From NCBI GenBank assembly GCA_026398575.1, contig JAPLSP010000348.1, forward strand, positions 1 through 8,259: a stretch of DNA of 8,259 nucleotides, in the 5' to 3' direction. The translations under genes and the position numbers were made by a program. Source of the stretch: Candidatus Sumerlaeota bacterium (lineage in GTDB: Bacteria; Sumerlaeota; Sumerlaeia; JADFCT01). Shown here piece by piece: positions 296 through 8,259 of this stretch. The notes beneath the pieces were generated by a model that was given only the letters and a program-made list of their open reading frames with translations, ran no database searches and was not told the origin of the DNA. Position 1 is the first letter of the stretch. Every line of letters starts with the position of its first letter.

Positions 296-739
296 CTACT
301 TTTTCTCGACCAGGACCTTGATCGTCGTCTCGACTTCCGGACGCAGATGCACGTGCACGGTATAAAGACCCAGGGTCTTGATCGGTTCGTCAAGGATGAT
401 CTTGCGGCGGTCCACCGTATAGCCCTGCTTGGCGATGGCCTCGGCAATGTCGGCGTTGGTCACCGAGCCAAACAATCGGTCGTTTTCGCCCGCTTTGAGA
501 TTGAACGTCAGCGTCAGCTGGATGATCTCGGCGGCCAGGGCTTTGGCGTCGTTCAGTTCGCGCGCCGCCTTCTTCTGCAGCGAGCGTTTGTGTTCCTCCA
601 ACATGCGGCGGTTGGCCGCCGTCACGGTCACGGCCATGCCGCGGGGCGCCAAAAAATTGCGGAAATATCCGTTTTTAACGCGAATGACATCGCCAATTTC
701 GCCTTTTTCGCGAAGGGGTTGAAGCAATAAGACTTCCAT
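296..739 (-). CDS. rplI: 50S ribosomal protein L9
   Basis: The 147-residue product is the normal length for bacterial L9 of the large ribosomal subunit. The N-terminal rRNA-binding domain is clear (residues 1-40, MEVLLLQPLREKGEIGDVI followed by VKNGYFRNFLAPRG, the L9 signature with its Gly, Tyr, Arg and Asn residues). It is followed by a long charged connecting helix (about 41-75) and a C-terminal domain (about 80-147) with the FGSVT motif and a terminal beta strand. The start is set by an AGGAG/GAGG ribosome site just upstream. It is the last gene of the rpsF-ssb-rpsR-rplI operon, 54 bases behind rpsR, with the terminator 28 bases beyond its TAG stop. Nothing suggests it is defective. Confidence 0.97.
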   Translation of the reverse strand: MEVLLLQPLREKGEIGDVIRVKNGYFRNFLAPRGMAVTVTAANRRMLEEHKRSLQKKAARELNDAKALAAEIIQLTLTFNLKAGENDRLFGSVTNADIAEAIAKQGYTVDRRKIILDEPIKTLGLYTVHVHLRPEVETTIKVLVEKK

Positions 740-793
740 GATTCCTCACTCCTGAAGATGAGAGTCGCTTGGGAGGGCGCCAAAGAGAGCCTG

Positions 794-1267
794 TCAGGCT
801 TTGAACGGCAGCAGGGCGATATTGCGCGCCCGCTTGATGGCCACGTCCAATTCGCGCTGATGGCCGGCGCACGTGCCCGTCATGCGGCGCGGACGGATTT
901 TACCCCGGTCCGAGATAAAGGTGCGCAAAATCCCCACGTCTTTATAGTCAATGTATTTGATCTTCTGGGCGCAAATCTGGCACATCTTGCGATGCGCAAA
1001 GCGCCGCCCGCCGCCGCCGCGCTTGCCGCCCATCTCGTCGCCGCGATCTCCGCTGTCCCTGCGCGGGCCGCGGCCATATCCGCCACCGCCGCCATATCCG
1101 CCGCCGCCGCCGCCATATCCGCCGCCGCCGCCGCGAGGACCGCCGCGATCATCGCGACCACCGCGATCATAGCGTTCCGTCGGGGGAGCGGGCCGTCGTT
1201 CTTCCACTGCGGGCTTCGCGATCTCTGCCGCAACTTCTGTTGCTTCGCTTTTTTCCATCTCGTCCAT
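794..1267 (-). CDS. rpsR: 30S ribosomal protein S18 with long Gly-rich N-terminal tail
   Basis: Residues about 88-157 are a full S18 core ([15 protein letters not shown], then the [19 protein letters not shown] and [31 protein letters not shown] segments). It carries C96-x2-C99 and C133-x2-H136, four candidate zinc ligands of the cysteine-containing form of S18. S18 pairs with S6 on the small-subunit platform. The first roughly 87 residues are an extension not found in the usual 70-90-residue protein: an acidic start, then Arg/Asp/Gly and YGGGG repeats. I chose the ATG at 1267 because AAGGGA lies eight bases upstream; an ATG at 1285 in the same frame has no ribosome site. The YGGGG coding tract (about 1070-1135) is made of GCC/GCG-type triplet repeats and may vary in length between strains. 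Confidence 0.95.
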
Positions 1268-1304
1268 TAGGGTATTCCCTTCCATTCGAAATCATAACTT
1301 GCCG

Positions 1305-1391
1305 GTCTTCCCCATCCGCGGCGGACCTTCGGGTGGACTCGCCGGCAGAGATGCCGGCGTTCCCAGTCTTCTCCACCCGCGGCGGACCTTC
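1305..1391. repeat. Direct repeat pair flanking nested hairpins in the ssb-rpsR gap
   Basis: Two 26-base copies at 1305-1330 and 1366-1391 differ at only two positions; both contain the core CCGCGGCGGACCTTC. Between them, GGGTGGA (1331-1337) pairs with TCCACCC (1372-1378, inside the second copy), enclosing a 7-pair hairpin CGCCGGC (1340-1346) / GCCGGCG (1353-1359) with a six-base loop. The unit fills most of the 137-base space between ssb and rpsR. It may be a dispersed palindromic repeat, an mRNA processing or attenuation structure within the operon, or both. No T-run follows the hairpin on the minus strand, so it is not a classical terminator. Confidence 0.65.
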
Positions 1392-1404
1392 CGGCGATCA
1401 GGCC

Positions 1405-1938
1405 TCAAAAGGGCAGATCATCATCCGTCGAAGAAACGCCGGGGCCGTTATCCGCAGACATGATCGGCGGCTCGCGATGCAATTCGGGTTGATCGAATGC
1501 CGTGGGGTCTTCCGAAGACATCGGAGCGGATGAAGCGCCCGCGCCCGCGCCCGAACCGGCGCCGGCCGCGCCCGCCGGAGCGCCGCCGCGCCGGGCTTCT
1601 TCTTCCGCGCGCGTCTCGGCGAACGCCAGACGCTCGGCGACCACCACCAGGCGCGACAGCTTCTGTCCGTCTTTTTCCCAGTTCTCCTGCTGAAGGCGCC
1701 CCTCGACGTATATCCCTTTGCCCTTCGTGAAAAACTGCTGCATGAACTCGGCTTGCTTATTCCAGGCCTTCACGGTGATGAAAGCCGTTTCCGTGACGTA
1801 TTCATTGGTGCGGGAATCGCGGCGCCGCCGCCCGATGGCCACGCCGAAACTGGCCACCGAACTGCCCCCCGCTAAAACACGGACTTCCGGATCGCGCGTC
1901 AAATTGCCCACCAACATGACTTTGTTGAGCTCCAGCAT
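1405..1938 (-). CDS. ssb: Single-stranded DNA-binding protein
   Basis: The 177-residue product fits the usual bacterial SSB size. Residues 1-108 form the OB fold (NKVMLVGNLTRDPEVR, TAFITVKAWNKQAEF with W59, then KGKGIYVEGRLQ and ENWEKDGQK). It coats single-stranded DNA during replication, repair and recombination. Residues about 110-170 are a flexible Glu/Ala/Gly-rich linker. The protein ends in TDDDLPF, the acidic-hydrophobic tip that recruits partner proteins (the common form is DDIPF; here Leu replaces Ile). The start at 1938 is supported by a strong GGAAGGAG site eight bases upstream. It lies between rpsF and rpsR, the usual place for ssb in this operon, 56 bases after rpsF. Confidence 0.97.
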   Translation of the reverse strand: MLELNKVMLVGNLTRDPEVRVLAGGSSVASFGVAIGRRRRDSRTNEYVTETAFITVKAWNKQAEFMQQFFTKGKGIYVEGRLQQENWEKDGQKLSRLVVVAERLAFAETRAEEEARRGGAPAGAAGAGSGAGAGASSAPMSSEDPTAFDQPELHREPPIMSADNGPGVSSTDDDLPF

Positions 1939-1994
1939 GGTTTCATCTCCTTCCGGGTTTTCAGACCCTGGTTGTAGGATTTATCAACCTTATG

Positions 1995-2594
1995 CTATTC
2001 ACTCTTCGCAGTATCCGCCGCGACCGGTTCAACCGGCGCAGGCTCGGAAGCGGCAACGGCGGCATCCGTCTGCAGCAAAGCCTCCAAAGCGGCGGGTTCC
2101 GCGGCGGCGGGTTCCGCGGCCGGAACGGCCTCCGCAACCACTGCGACGCCTTCGGCAGCAGCGGCCGGAGCGCCTTCAACGGGCGCCTTGGCGGCTTCCG
2201 CAGCAGGGGCAGGCTGCGACCGGGTATAACGCCGCGAGCCCGGCGCCGATTTCGTGTATTCCTGTGGCGTGAGGATGGGGCTGTCTTTTTGTTCGTCTGG
2301 AATCCGGACGAAGATATGCCGCATCACCGCTTCGGAGAAACGCAGGTGGCGCTCAAGCTCCGTAAAGTCCACCGCTCCGCCCGTTGGATCATGCGTAAAG
2401 CGGAAAACGATGTAGTTGCCTTCCGGCTTTTTTTCAACCGGATAAGCCATCTTGCGCCGGCCCCAGTGATTCTGGGCCGTGATGGCGATGCCTTTGGTCT
2501 CGCTCAGGCGGCGTTTGATATCTTCGACTTGCGCGACGGCCTGATCATCATTTAATGCAGGGTCAAGAATGACGACTATTTCGTAAACAGCCAT
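1995..2594 (-). CDS. rpsF: 30S ribosomal protein S6 with Ala/Glu-rich C-terminal tail
   Basis: Residues 1-100 match S6 (MAVYEIVVILDPALNDDQ, then HWGRRKMAYPVEKKPEGNY, FTELERHLRFSEAVMRHIFVRI). S6 is the small-subunit protein that binds 16S rRNA together with S18. The start is the ATG at 2594, which has an excellent GGGAGGT site; an in-frame ATG 84 bases further upstream (2678) has none and would add a non-S6 stretch. Residues 101-199 are a tail rich in Ala, Glu and Pro, roughly doubling the protein relative to the typical 95-130 residues. It is the first gene of the four-gene operon, so S6 and S18, which form a heterodimer, both carry extensions here. Confidence 0.96.
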   Translation of the reverse strand: MAVYEIVVILDPALNDDQAVAQVEDIKRRLSETKGIAITAQNHWGRRKMAYPVEKKPEGNYIVFRFTHDPTGGAVDFTELERHLRFSEAVMRHIFVRIPDEQKDSPILTPQEYTKSAPGSRRYTRSQPAPAAEAAKAPVEGAPAAAAEGVAVVAEAVPAAEPAAAEPAALEALLQTDAAVAASEPAPVEPVAADTAKSE

Positions 2595-2620
2595 TCTTTT
2601 ACCTCCCTCTGGGCGAAATG

Positions 2621-2653
2621 GCCCCCCGCCGGCGGGCGCCGAAACCGGGGAGC
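2621..2653 (-). promoter_or_regulatory. GC-rich hairpin in the rpsF 5' leader, possible S6:S18 leader element
   Basis: In the rpsF mRNA direction, GCTCCCC (2653-2647) can pair with GGGGGGC (2627-2621) around 19 bases. The same stretch also contains the perfect 12-base palindrome CCCGCCGGCGGG (2625-2636), so two folds exclude each other. The structure ends about 18 bases before the ribosome site of rpsF. Many bacteria control this operon through a leader hairpin bound by the S6:S18 pair. Placement fits such an element, but I could not match the conserved bulge of that motif with confidence. Confidence 0.35.
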
Positions 2654-2700
2654 AGAGAGACAAAGAAGCGAGCTTCAAATGTCAAAACAAGGGTGAGAGA

Positions 2701-2966: not shown

Positions 2967-4247
2967 TTAGCTATAATCGAACAGCCCACTAATCCAGTGA
3001 CCTTCGCGCTTATCCACGCGCACTGGGCAATAAGGCCAGAAGTCACGAAGCACTTCTGCATGCGGGTGTCCCAACTTCTTATGATGAGGATCAGAGCTAA
3101 AAACGCTTACTATTGGTTTAATCGCTTCAGCCACGCCTTTATGCCAGTTTCGCTTGGCGCCATGATGCATCACTTGAAAAACACCTGTTCGGTCTATCCT
3201 CGCCTGACTAAGAAAATTAACTAAACGACTTAACTTGTTAGTAGTATCCAGAAAACCGTCACCAGTATAAAGTATGCTACAGGCTCCTAGCGATACTGGC
3301 CAGAGATGATGCCAATGGCGATGTGGAAAGCGAAAAGGAAATTCGCATAACTCAAACGAACACCTGCCAAGAGTATAGAAACCTTGATTGCTGTAAATAG
3401 GACCTGCATACAAAAAGAGCGAAATAGCGTTCCGCTGTTCCGATTTACCGCCAAACTGACTGTCATAGATATTTTTCAGCTCTTTTAGTGTTTGATTCCT
3501 TTGCGAATTAGGAATTCCCTCTCGCAGAAGATTACTGCTTTCAGCCTTAACCTTCTCTCGAAAACTCTCTGGAATCTCATCCTCAGGATCGTCATTGTAT
3601 GCAATAAACTCCCAGTATTTGGAGATCGAGATTGCGCTTCCTTTTTTGAGATAATTCACTGACGACTTTCCAGATTCGGAAGTCGAACCAAATTCATTCT
3701 TTTCCGGTGGTTCACCTGACTGGAAGTCGATATTGAAATTATCCTCACTCAAATCCGGTGAAGGTGGCATACCTCCTGACATTGAAGGTCCTTCATTTCC
3801 GCTCGGCGGAACGAAAAGAATGCGCCCAATTCTATTATCACCAAGGGATGTAAGATAACGTACAGGGTTAATGAAGAAGCTCATGTCCGGATCGTCTAGT
3901 CCTGTATTTTCTTTATAGGCGTGAATGAGCCGCTGTTCAAGAGGCATATAAGGCAGCATCAGTGTGCCAATATTCTTGAATCTCCCGATTAATTTACAGA
4001 TGCCGCTAATGTGATCCTTGTCAAAATGCGAAATTGCAAGTAAATCAATGCATTTTCTGTCTTCATACTGGCGTTCTATCTTGGAAATTCCCGAATCAAT
4101 CATATCTTGAGACGAGCTCGTTCCGCAATCATAGACCCATTGGAAGCGGCATTTTTCATTAGGCTCATCAACAATATCACCATAAGCAAAAAGCCCTTGA
4201 CCGACCGGAAAAAACTGATAGTGAAACAAATGCCGTGGAAAGCTCAT
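2967..4247 (-). CDS. ComEC/Rec2-type metallo-beta-lactamase-fold hydrolase (soluble, stand-alone)
   Basis: The 426-residue product has the motif order of the MBL domain of ComEC/Rec2 competence proteins but no membrane segments or signal peptide, so it is probably cytoplasmic. Visible are FFPVGQG (12-18), VYDCGT (38-43), the metal site ISHFDKDH (72-79, the HxDxDH variant normal for this subfamily), YTGD (327-330), VMHHG (359-363) and GHPH (393-396). Metal-dependent hydrolysis of a nucleic acid or other phosphodiester is the family expectation; the substrate is unknown. Residues about 145-200 are a Ser/Pro/Asn-rich insertion that looks disordered. The ATG at 4247 has GAGGT nine bases upstream, and a good promoter lies about 80 bases before it. 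The gene is much more A+T-rich than its neighbours, which suggests transfer. Soluble proteins of this type often sit in defence-like or mobile contexts, but no partner gene is identified here. Confidence 0.85.
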   Translation of the reverse strand: MSFPRHLFHYQFFPVGQGLFAYGDIVDEPNEKCRFQWVYDCGTSSSQDMIDSGISKIERQYEDRKCIDLLAISHFDKDHISGICKLIGRFKNIGTLMLPYMPLEQRLIHAYKENTGLDDPDMSFFINPVRYLTSLGDNRIGRILFVPPSGNEGPSMSGGMPPSPDLSEDNFNIDFQSGEPPEKNEFGSTSESGKSSVNYLKKGSAISISKYWEFIAYNDDPEDEIPESFREKVKAESSNLLREGIPNSQRNQTLKELKNIYDSQFGGKSEQRNAISLFLYAGPIYSNQGFYTLGRCSFELCEFPFRFPHRHWHHLWPVSLGACSILYTGDGFLDTTNKLSRLVNFLSQARIDRTGVFQVMHHGAKRNWHKGVAEAIKPIVSVFSSDPHHKKLGHPHAEVLRDFWPYCPVRVDKREGHWISGLFDYS

Positions 4248-4500: not shown

Positions 4501-5559
4501 ATGACCAAAACGCCTGCCGTCCGCAATGCCAATAAGCAGATCAAGCGAAACGCCCCGCCGCCGTTCGTCGAGGCGGCCACAAAAGGCCCGATCCTCATCA
4601 CAGGCGCCGGCGGATTTATCGGCAGCCATGTGGTGGAAGCGGCAGCGCGGCGCGGGATGCGCGTACGCGCCTTTGTCCGCTATAATTCCCGCAACGATTC
4701 GGGACTGCTGCGATGGATTGACAAGGAGATTGGGGAGACCGTGGAAGTTTTTCGCGGCGATTTGCGCGATCCGTCCGCCGCGCGCGAAGCGGTCGCCGGA
4801 TGCGCCACGGTCATTCACCTCGCGGCGCTGATCGCCATCCCCTATTCCTACCTGCGCCCGATGGAATACCTCCAGACCAACGTCCTCGGGACGGCCAACG
4901 TGCTGGACGCCTGCCGCGAAGCCCAGGTCCGGCGGGTGGTCATCACTTCGACGAGCGAGGTTTACGGCAGCGCGCGCTATACGCCGATAGACGAAGGCCA
5001 TCCGCTCCAGGCGCAGTCGCCCTACGCGGCCAGCAAAATCGCCGCCGACAAACTGGCGGAAAGCTACGGTTGCGCGTTCGGACTGCCTGTTGTCATCGCG
5101 CGGCCCTTCAACACGTTTGGTCCGCGACAGTCGGCGCGCGCCATCATCCCGACGATCATCGCGCAGGCGCTTTCGGGCGGACCGGTGCGCCTCGGAAGCC
5201 TTGAACCGCGCCGCGATCTGAATTTCGTGGCCGACACCGCCGAAGGCATGCTGCGATGCGCCGAGACGCCGGGAATCGAAGGCGAAACCTTCAACCTGGG
5301 CCGGGGCGAAGACATCTCGATCGGCGAACTGGCGCGCAACATCGTCACGCAGATTGACGCGCGCATCCCAATCGAGTCCGACGCGCGGCGCGTGCGCCCG
5401 GACAAAAGCGAAGTGATTCAGTTGCTGGCCGACAGCTCCAAAGCGCGCGAGCGCCTGGGCTGGACGCCGCAAACCAGCCTCGACGAGGGTTTGCGCCTGA
5501 CCATCGAGTGGTATCGTCAGAATGCGGGATTCGTGGATGCGGGCGCCTATGGCATATAG
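4501..5559 (+). CDS. legB: NAD-dependent sugar-nucleotide 4,6-dehydratase, LegB-like
   Basis: This is a 352-residue extended short-chain dehydrogenase. The Rossmann NAD site is TGAGGFIGS (34-42), followed by GDLRD (86-90) and HLAALIAIPYSY (106-117). The catalytic TSTSEVYG (149-156) contains the Thr-Ser-Glu set of 4,6-dehydratases, and Y175/K179 (SPYAASK) complete the active site. PFNTFGPRQSARAIIPTII is characteristic of LegB, which converts UDP-GlcNAc (or GDP-GlcNAc in Campylobacter) to a 4-keto-6-deoxy sugar for legionaminic or bacillosamine-type glycans. The ATG at 4501 has GAGGA seven bases upstream. The first roughly 28 residues (Lys/Pro/Ala-rich) precede the usual start of the fold and are unusual. 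No other genes of the pathway lie in the window, so the exact sugar product is inferred from resemblance only. Confidence 0.85.
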   Translation: MTKTPAVRNANKQIKRNAPPPFVEAATKGPILITGAGGFIGSHVVEAAARRGMRVRAFVRYNSRNDSGLLRWIDKEIGETVEVFRGDLRDPSAAREAVAGCATVIHLAALIAIPYSYLRPMEYLQTNVLGTANVLDACREAQVRRVVITSTSEVYGSARYTPIDEGHPLQAQSPYAASKIAADKLAESYGCAFGLPVVIARPFNTFGPRQSARAIIPTIIAQALSGGPVRLGSLEPRRDLNFVADTAEGMLRCAETPGIEGETFNLGRGEDISIGELARNIVTQIDARIPIESDARRVRPDKSEVIQLLADSSKARERLGWTPQTSLDEGLRLTIEWYRQNAGFVDAGAYGI

Positions 5560-5578: not shown

Positions 5579-6319
5579 TTATTTCTGCTTCAAACTGTCG
5601 GTAAATTCCTTCCACAGCTCATCCAACGTCTTGCCGGTATAGTCCTTGAAAAGTTCTTCGCGATACCGGTTGCGGCGCAAGGCGTCATTCAGTTTCTTGA
5701 CGATACCCTCGTCTTTCTTTTCGACCAGCCACGCCAGGAACGCCCCGGTAGTTTGATAGCCTTGATTATATTGCGCCTTGTCCGGATTGACACGCGGGCG
5801 CTTCCCCTTCGGCTCATACATCCAGAAGCGGACATAGTCGGCGATGCCCTCGACCAGCCAGCTCGGTTTGCTATAGGGCGGCTGCGGACTGCCGCGATAT
5901 TGCTGCGCGACGTGCGCCAGCTCATGCATGACGGCGCCGATGTCCTCCGGCTTTTTCAGGAACCACTCGGGCGCCAGCTGAATCCACGCGCCCCTTGTAT
6001 CCGCGATCCCCTTCTTATCTTTGACAATCGTGATCCTGACGTCGCGCGGTGGCGTGAAACCGTCGGCGCGCAGGTATTCGGCGGCCTTGGGATAAAACAT
6101 GTTGGCGTCTTTTTCAACGCGCCCGGCCCACGCCTTCATCTCAGGGACTTGCGAGTACTCCATCTGAATCACAAAGGTGGTGGCCTGGGCTTGAGCTTGG
6201 GATTGGGCTTGGACCTTACTGTCACTGGACACGCTTTCGGCGAAAGCAACCGGCGGCGCGATCAACAGGATTGCGACTAAGGTAATTATGCAGGACAACA
6301 AAAATTTACGCTGGGGCAT
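5579..6319 (-). CDS. Secreted basic-secretory-protein family peptidase-like protein
   Basis: The 246-residue product has a clear signal peptide: MPQRK, a hydrophobic stretch (about 6-21) and a likely cut after PPVAFA (residue 27). A Gln/Ala repeat linker (36-46) follows, then a domain (about 50-246) resembling the plant basic secretory protein family. H132-E-L-A-H136 is a zincin-type HExxH motif and WLVEGIADYVRFW (from 154, with E157) is the downstream family signature. Proteins of this family are regarded as metallopeptidase-like; the substrate is unknown and the location should be periplasmic or extracellular. I chose the ATG at 6319 because GGAG lies seven bases upstream and it puts the signal peptide at the N-terminus; the in-frame ATGs at 6337 and 6361 have no such site. 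It converges on the 4,6-dehydratase gene with an 19-base gap and no obvious terminator between them. Confidence 0.85.
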   Translation of the reverse strand: MPQRKFLLSCIITLVAILLIAPPVAFAESVSSDSKVQAQSQAQAQATTFVIQMEYSQVPEMKAWAGRVEKDANMFYPKAAEYLRADGFTPPRDVRITIVKDKKGIADTRGAWIQLAPEWFLKKPEDIGAVMHELAHVAQQYRGSPQPPYSKPSWLVEGIADYVRFWMYEPKGKRPRVNPDKAQYNQGYQTTGAFLAWLVEKKDEGIVKKLNDALRRNRYREELFKDYTGKTLDELWKEFTDSLKQK

Positions 6320-6548
6320 TGTGTCACTCCATTTCATTGCGGACTTTGCGTTCCGCGCCAAATCGAATCATGAAGATGATTTTGGACGCAATGCTTTCTT
6401 TTATCGAGCAAGTCCGGCGCCAATCATATATGGCAGCATAAGAACTGGGATTTTTTCAGACTCTGTTAGAAAAATGTGCCGCACTGTGGCGCCAGAGAAT
6501 TAGATGGCTTGCTCATGGCGCCCGTGCCTGTTGCTGAAAATCCGTCCT
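6320..6548. other. Intergenic region upstream of the basic-secretory-protein gene
   Basis: There is no gene here. The base composition is more balanced than in the flanking genes. The leader of the secreted-protein gene must lie at its left end, but I found no promoter hexamers convincing enough to list. Short frames that cross it are unlike known proteins. Confidence 0.4.
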
Positions 6549-6744: not shown

Positions 6745-6872
6745 AATTGCGGCCATGCAAGAAAAAAATCCCTTGATACAAAAGCCCTGCTGCAAATACT
6801 CGTGCGAACGATGAACGGCGCCGCAGCCGTTTTTTTGAGTTTTTATGAGTGACGAAAAAAAAGGGAGGCCTT
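6745..6872 (+). other. Leader region of the phosphoketolase gene
   Basis: This stretch of about 130 bases between the repeat cluster and the phosphoketolase ATG holds no gene. Just before the ATG at 6873 is AAAAAAAAGGGAGG, a strong ribosome site with four bases to the start. A second ATG at 6846 opens a different phase and is not supported. No confident promoter hexamers were found. Confidence 0.45.
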
Positions 6873-8259
6873 ATGAATGCGCCATTATCATCCGAATTGC
6901 TCCGCAAACTAAACGCCTACTGGCGCGCGGCCAACTATCTGTCGGTCGGGCAAATCTACCTGTTCGACAATCCGTTGCTGAAAGAGCCGCTCCAGGCAAA
7001 GCACATCAAGCCCCGCCTGCTCGGACACTGGGGGACCACGCCGGGATTGAACTTCATCTACGCGCACCTCAACCGCGTCATCAAAGAGCGCGACCTGAAC
7101 ATGATCTACGTCATCGGGCCGGGACACGGCGGCCCGGCGCTGGTCGCCAACGCCTACCTCGAAGGGACGTATAGCGAAGTCTATCCCAACATCTCGCAGG
7201 ATGAGGAAGGGATGAAACGGCTGTTCACGCAGTTCTCATTCCCGGGCGGGATTCCCAGCCACGTGGCGCCGGAGACGCCCGGTTCGATTCATGAAGGCGG
7301 CGAATTGGGATACGCCCTGTCGCATGCGTTCGGCGCGGCATTCGACAATCCCAATCTGATCGTGGCGGCTGTGGTCGGCGACGGCGAGGCTGAGACCGGC
7401 CCCCTGGCCACCAGCTGGCACTCCAATAAATTTCTCAACCCGATTGGCTACGCGCCGCGCTTTGTCGGCGCCGATGGTCCAGAGGCGCTGACCCTCGAGC
7501 CCACCGCCGCGCACCAGCAGATGGCGGCGACGCTTGATGAAGCAATCGCGGAGATCAAAAGCATTCAGGACGCCGCGCGCACAAAAGGCTTCCAGGATCG
7601 CCCCCGGTGGCCGATGATCATCCTGCGCTCCCCGAAAGGCTGGACCGGCCCTCATACCGTGGACGGCAAGCCGACCGAGGGAACGTTCCGTTCTCACCAA
7701 GTGCCGATGGCCGAGATGGACAAGCCCGAACACATCCAAATCCTCGAAACCTGGATGAAGAGCTACAAAGCGGAAGAGCTCTTCGACGCGACGGGCAGGC
7801 TCAAAGCGGAGCTGGCCGAACTGGCGCCCCAAGGCCTTCGCCGCATGAGCGCCAATCCTCATGCCAACGGCGGCGTCCTTCTGCGCGATCTGCGGATGCC
7901 CAACTTTGAAGACTATGCCGTGGACGTTCCCACGCCCGGCGCCGTGGACGCCGAGTCCTGCCGAGTCCAGGGACAGTTCATCCGCGACGTGATGAAGCTG
8001 AATTGGGACAGCGCCAACTTCCGCGTCTTCAGCCCGGACGAAACCAGTTCGAACCGCTGGGACGCCGTATTCGAGGTGACGAACCGTTGCTCGACGGCGG
8101 AAATCATTCCGATCGACGACCATGTCGCCGCGGATGGCCGGGTGATGGAGATGTTGAGCGAGCATCAATGCGAGGGTTGGCTCGAGGGGTATCTCCTCAC
8201 CGGCCGTCACGGATTTTTCTCCTGCTACGAGGCGTTCATTCACATCATCGATTCGATGT
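6873..8259 (+). CDS. xfp: Xylulose-5-phosphate/fructose-6-phosphate phosphoketolase, 3' end outside window, internal in-frame gap
   Basis: 462 codons of a usually about 790-830-residue thiamine-diphosphate enzyme that splits xylulose-5-phosphate (or fructose-6-phosphate) with phosphate into acetyl phosphate and an aldose phosphate. Matching stretches include [15 protein letters not shown] (16-30), [11 protein letters not shown] with H52, GPGHGGPA with H85, [16 protein letters not shown] with H140, [18 protein letters not shown] (169-186), PKGWTGP, RSHQVP, NPHANGG, and SEHQ with E430, then [17 protein letters not shown]. The ATG at 6873 follows GGGAGG. The frame is open throughout. Oddity: after NP (189-190) the protein goes straight to IGYAPRFV. 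About 38 residues that normally lie there (RTDGIVLPILHLNGYKIAN and the following helix) are absent. These include the Asn that completes the GDG...N cofactor motif, so the enzyme may be inactive or altered unless this is an assembly error. Confidence 0.93.

Follow-up and report, generated by a model that had tools for sequence, protein, structure and literature searches.

We analysed the 8,259-nucleotide stretch (hereafter the window) of contig JAPLSP010000348.1, from the Candidatus Sumerlaeota bacterium assembly GCA_026398575.1, which ends in a phosphoketolase (xfp) frame on the forward strand. This frame is an ordinary bacterial phosphoketolase gene from which 111 in-frame bases of the PP domain are gone in the contig copy. 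We assign a probability of roughly 0.93 to the reading that the gap arose from a contig error or a very recent deletion and does not mark a variant clade. The phosphoketolase gene itself would then be normal and this contig copy short in its PP domain, through an error in the contig or through a deletion too recent for decay to show. Neither origin makes a new kind of enzyme, and there is no pointer to one in the window.

The window protein passed the cut-offs of XFP_N (PF09364, 23.7 bits) and XFP (PF03894, 22 bits) with the scores given in Table 1, the latter match covering profile positions 2-98 of 177 as the contig end cuts the rest. None of the six NCBIfam phosphoketolase models reached its cut-off for this protein, which is cut by the contig end (best NF003619, 804.1 bits versus 962). 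The contig stops at 8259, before the XFP C-terminal domain (PF09363), and the analysis covers the part upstream. When the protein was compared with PDB sequences, the matches were solved phosphoketolases (10 distinct sequences; best 8io8, E 2.1e-187). The frame is opened by GTG at 6849. Its database entry (P0001, 462 residues), which is the window's own protein and a single sequence from one contig of 8259 bases (by its length most likely the same contig, covered whole by the window), begins at ATG 6873, and this ATG is more likely to be the start than the GTG.

When the protein was aligned with its relative P0003 (84 % identity over aligned columns), the 38 residues between SNKFLNP and GYTP corresponded to one Ile in the window, a net difference of 37 codons or 111 nt. 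The same gap was seen in the alignment with 8io8, where query residues 199 and 200 are paired with chain residues 199 and 237, and the XFP_N match was split into two stretches, the best of which ends at residue 199. Because 16 of 316 sequences also have Ile at the first position of the 38-residue stretch, a single deletion beginning right after the Ile would be the simplest reading. The missing length is divisible by three, and the frame stays open for 271 codons after the junction. Nowhere else in the window did a tblastn search find the missing segment; its best match (E = 0.12) lies inside the XFP frame itself.

An earlier note, made from the letters of the window, had described an uninterrupted frame, a loss of an exact multiple of three with no frameshift, and the absence of a strand, LPILHLNGYKI, with its motif Asn. 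All three were borne out: the strand is absent in the window and present in relatives, and the alignment check that the note proposed, in which the HLNGYKI region was sought elsewhere, did not find it in the window. The note had put the loss at about 38 residues (about 114 nt), which is right for the stretch in relatives and one codon more than the net loss, as one Ile (7443-7445) stands before GYAP.

Relatives were collected by a full-length protein search (best 120 of 8000 scored candidates listed) and by a junction search in which residues 165-260 were compared with 5.8 billion proteins (best 120 of 7999 scored candidates listed). The 38-residue stretch follows SNKFLNP in 92/92 fetched loci (91 distinct, as L044 and L088 are the same locus). 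Among the 225 proteins spanning the site, 224 have 38 residues (119 listed relatives from the full-length search and 105 further ones from the junction search), and the sole exception is the window's own protein. Thirteen of the 37 gap columns are invariant and 21 of the 37 are conserved at at least 97 %. The Asn of the GDG-x-N motif is N in 316/316 sequences, and the spacing from the GDG Asp to this Asn is 33 residues in two relatives measured. In the window protein, the Asn half of the motif (L-N-G-Y-K) is absent. The missing segment includes the LPILHLNGYKI strand with the motif Asn, plus two predicted helices. Judged from these alignments, the gap goes beyond chance variation.

In the junction search, the window's own protein scored 205 bits and the next of the matches listed, P0003, 150 bits. 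No second protein with the gap was found among the 120 matches listed in this search, nor in any relative measured. In the phylum of the Terriglobia bacterium G016 (the source of locus L044), 59 of 297 genomes matched, G259 and G292 very weakly, and the segment was present in all 12 of the best genome matches (L081-L092) when these were measured. A natural variant clade, one of the origins offered in the earlier note, is therefore unsupported as far as the searches reach, since no other listed match or measured relative has the gap. The junction search also returned three phosphoketolase N-terminal pieces (P0123, P0124 and P0126; 332-375 aa, XFP_N only, on contigs of 36-189 kb), which are perhaps frameshift-split or true short forms.

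In thiamine diphosphate (ThDP) enzymes, the Asp and Asn of the GDG-x-N motif hold Mg and thiamine diphosphate. We take the Asn of LPILHLNGYKI to be the Mg binder in phosphoketolase, and a literature search aimed at the Mg-binding Asn or the motif found no paper. According to an excerpt of PMC10365998, phosphoketolase belongs to the transketolase family and has thiamine pyrophosphate and Mg (TPP/Mg) at the dimer interface, and an excerpt of PMC3352088 places the transketolase GDG motif at the turn of a beta-alpha-beta fold. The protein as encoded should not bind ThDP/Mg. It would be expected neither to fold properly nor to be active, because a core beta-strand, two helices and the motif Asn are lost. 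In structure models, built from alignments of 50 sequences each, the strand following the gap was not formed in the window protein.

Outside the gap, no decay was observed. The conservation set had 287 rows, the window and 286 relatives; P0001, two non-XFP proteins, L088 and 29 sequences shorter than 600 aa (315 less 286) were left out. In the part that is present, 95 columns are invariant among the 286 relatives, 131 are conserved at at least 99 % and 194 at at least 97 %, and the window differs at none of them. It differs at 3 of the 269 columns conserved at at least 90 %. This agrees with the earlier note, which had called the other motifs intact, for the part present, where GDG and SEHQ are both found. 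When the 97 % count was repeated for the other rows by leaving one out, the mean was 1.97 and the maximum 76. Zero changed columns is thus to be expected of a sound member and does not set the window apart. In a tree of the window and 50 of the conservation rows, the end branch of the window (0.13) was in line with sister clades, and pairwise comparison with five relatives gave a nonsynonymous divergence (dN) of about 0.15-0.19 and a synonymous divergence (dS) above 1. Outside the gap, the gene bears the signature of purifying selection. If selection had ended with the loss, the 194 codons, with their 446 nonsynonymous sites, would limit neutral divergence since then to less than about 0.7 % (95 %). 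With no decay outside the gap, it follows that the organism either acquired the lesion very recently or does not have it.

A contig error is the most likely source of the gap, ahead of a recent deletion: an assembler or a gap-closing step probably fused the flanks of a stretch that the organism does have. The gap is seen in a singleton on a short contig that ends 814 bases past the junction and in no other sequence listed or measured, and strongly conserved sequence is gone, yet the rest shows no decay. Misassembly checks on metagenomes are described as crucial in an excerpt of PMC8172020. However, relatives (91 of the 92 loci measured) have little microhomology at the break: 0 nt in 70, 1 nt in 18, 2 nt in 2 and 4 nt in 1. 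No repeat was found at the junction in window positions 7150-7750; one 10-nt pair with 90 % identity (7374-7383 and 7464-7473) flanks it. Simple repeat collapse is thus unlikely, as no repeat flanks the break in the relatives. The earlier note had suggested a collapsed assembly; an assembly error is in our view the most likely origin, and collapse of a repeat in particular is not favoured (microhomology of 0-2 nt in all but one of the 91 relatives). Nor was a join of two organisms seen: composition is alike on both flanks (GC content and GC at third codon positions 0.595/0.774 left, 0.622/0.786 right), and the two flanks have 7 of their 10 nearest relatives in common.

A real and very recent deletion is a possible, more tentative explanation. 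Here, a strain or individual lineage would have lost the 111 bases and would make a dead phosphoketolase, which it either does not need in its niche or backs up with a second copy. The open frame, the exact multiple of three and the lack of a repeat for an assembler to collapse all fit, and decay would not be visible if less than about 0.7 % neutral divergence had accumulated since the lesion. However, the listed matches contain neither a second instance nor an independent xfp copy of the species, the next best protein being 79 % identical. The earlier note had raised a real in-frame deletion giving an inactive or repurposed protein; the inactive form is possible if very recent, as no decay is seen, and the repurposed one has no support. 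Retention of a shortened phosphoketolase in a role other than catalysis, such as a regulatory partner of a full-length copy, would fit the kept frame and the unchanged conserved columns, as under continuing selection, but is very improbable, since a changed role should relax at least some catalytic columns (0/194 changed), no clade with the gap was found and the model does not form the strand that follows the gap; a genuine, kept PP-domain-shortened form that does not bind ThDP and that, without catalysis of its own, partners or regulates a full-length copy in the same bacterium would be more improbable still. The probabilities of an artefact, a recent deletion and a kept altered protein are judgements and were not computed.

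Several observations weigh against our reading of a sound gene with a contig error or a very recent, inactivating deletion. A loss divisible by three that leaves the frame open has a chance of 1/3 and also suits a selected deletion. Relatives offer no flanking repeat, through which assemblies usually collapse. In addition, the L9 encoded by this contig matches a 97 % identical protein over its full length, and therefore the contig is not generally poor. In the structure models, overall confidence was near equal for the window and the control (mean predicted local distance difference test, pLDDT, 67.0 and predicted template modelling score, pTM, 0.76 versus 67.5 and 0.73), and the control model also has stretches under pLDDT 50 close to the site (173-184 and 207-211). 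The root-mean-square deviation to 8io8 was larger for the control (5.4) than for the window (3.0), and the lengths differ. The structure comparison of window and control is thus a weak one.

When a gap keeps the reading frame, one metagenomic contig is enough for it to pass for a natural enzyme variant, and caution is needed. A real and fixed deletion would suggest a lineage that has just lost its phosphoketolase or depends on another copy.

Table 1 Features of the phosphoketolase frame and neighbouring frames in the window
Feature	Position	Strand	Observation
Phosphoketolase (xfp) frame	6849..8258	+	Open reading frame; PF09364 499.9 bits, PF03894 138.3 bits; open to contig end
GDG, first half of ThDP/Mg motif	7377..7385	+	Intact; invariant in 50-sequence alignment
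SNKFLNP, last conserved residues ahead of gap	7422..7442	+	Read in sequence
Junction	7443..7446	+	Ile codon ATT 7443-7445, GYAP from 7446; 37 codons (111 nt) net short versus every measured relative
SEHQ motif	8157..8168	+	Intact; SEH invariant in 50-sequence alignment
Ribosomal/ssb cluster (L9, S18, SSB, S6)	296-2678	-	
S18 frame	794-1285	-	N-terminal extension of about 107 residues
S6 frame	1995-2678	-	Long Ala/Pro-rich C-terminal tail
Metallo-beta-lactamase-fold protein	2967-4247	-	
Sugar-nucleotide dehydratase	4501-5559	+	Nearest LegB
'Peptidase of plants and bacteria' (BSP)	5579-6361	-	PF04450, 90.2 bits

In the ribosomal cluster, L9 had matches at 97 % (P0228, on a contig of 615 bases) and 90 % (P0229), both in environmental contigs only. 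Among the best 120 of 691 matches, those named to an organism (Sumerlaeia, Binatia, Poribacteria) reached 52 % at most, and for this reason the source organism seems to belong to a poorly sampled lineage. The S18 frame looks unusual: its extension has RGG- and GGGGGY-like stretches, the S18 domain match covers just residues 108-159 of 163, and the start codon assignment is provisional. In the S6 frame, the tail lies past the domain (residues 32-125 of 227). The metallo-beta-lactamase-fold protein had weak matches to the defence proteins LmuA (E 1.4e-12) and Avs1a (E 1.6e-7, 30.4 bits versus a cut-off of 420), and no partner gene for it was recognised in the window. The dehydratase scored 408.1 bits with the LegB model TIGR04180 (cut-off 475). 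The start of the BSP peptidase is signal-peptide-like by eye. Scans of the window for tRNA genes and Rfam families found none.

The nearest relatives in the tree are uncultured bacterial phosphoketolases (P0002-P0009, P0011 and P0019), of which P0002 shares 79 % BLASTP identity with the window protein, or 85 % over aligned columns. Two features unite the window protein with this clade: the loop that follows the gap is longer and ends in GPE, and an additional stretch precedes HxQM. Unlike the window protein, all members of the clade carry the 38-residue stretch. The transketolase family, ThDP enzymes with a GDG motif, showed 12-19 % identity in the rows listed and is not the family of the window protein. 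A literature search of 6,580 papers for an inactive form, in-frame deletion or pseudogene of phosphoketolase found, among the 12 listed, no paper on a deleted phosphoketolase, by title and start of abstract. The conserved phosphoketolase indels described in an excerpt of PMC5315409 are small (1-3 residues) and mostly in surface loops, unlike the gap here. The closest known systems are the solved XFP/XPK enzymes 8io8 (cyanobacterial), 3ai7 (Bifidobacterium longum), 3ahc (B. breve) and 6gua (Lactococcus lactis). Like these, the window protein has both domains, XFP_N and XFP, and agrees at the strongly conserved columns on either side of the gap; unlike them, it is without a net 37 codons of the PP domain, including the motif Asn and the core strand.
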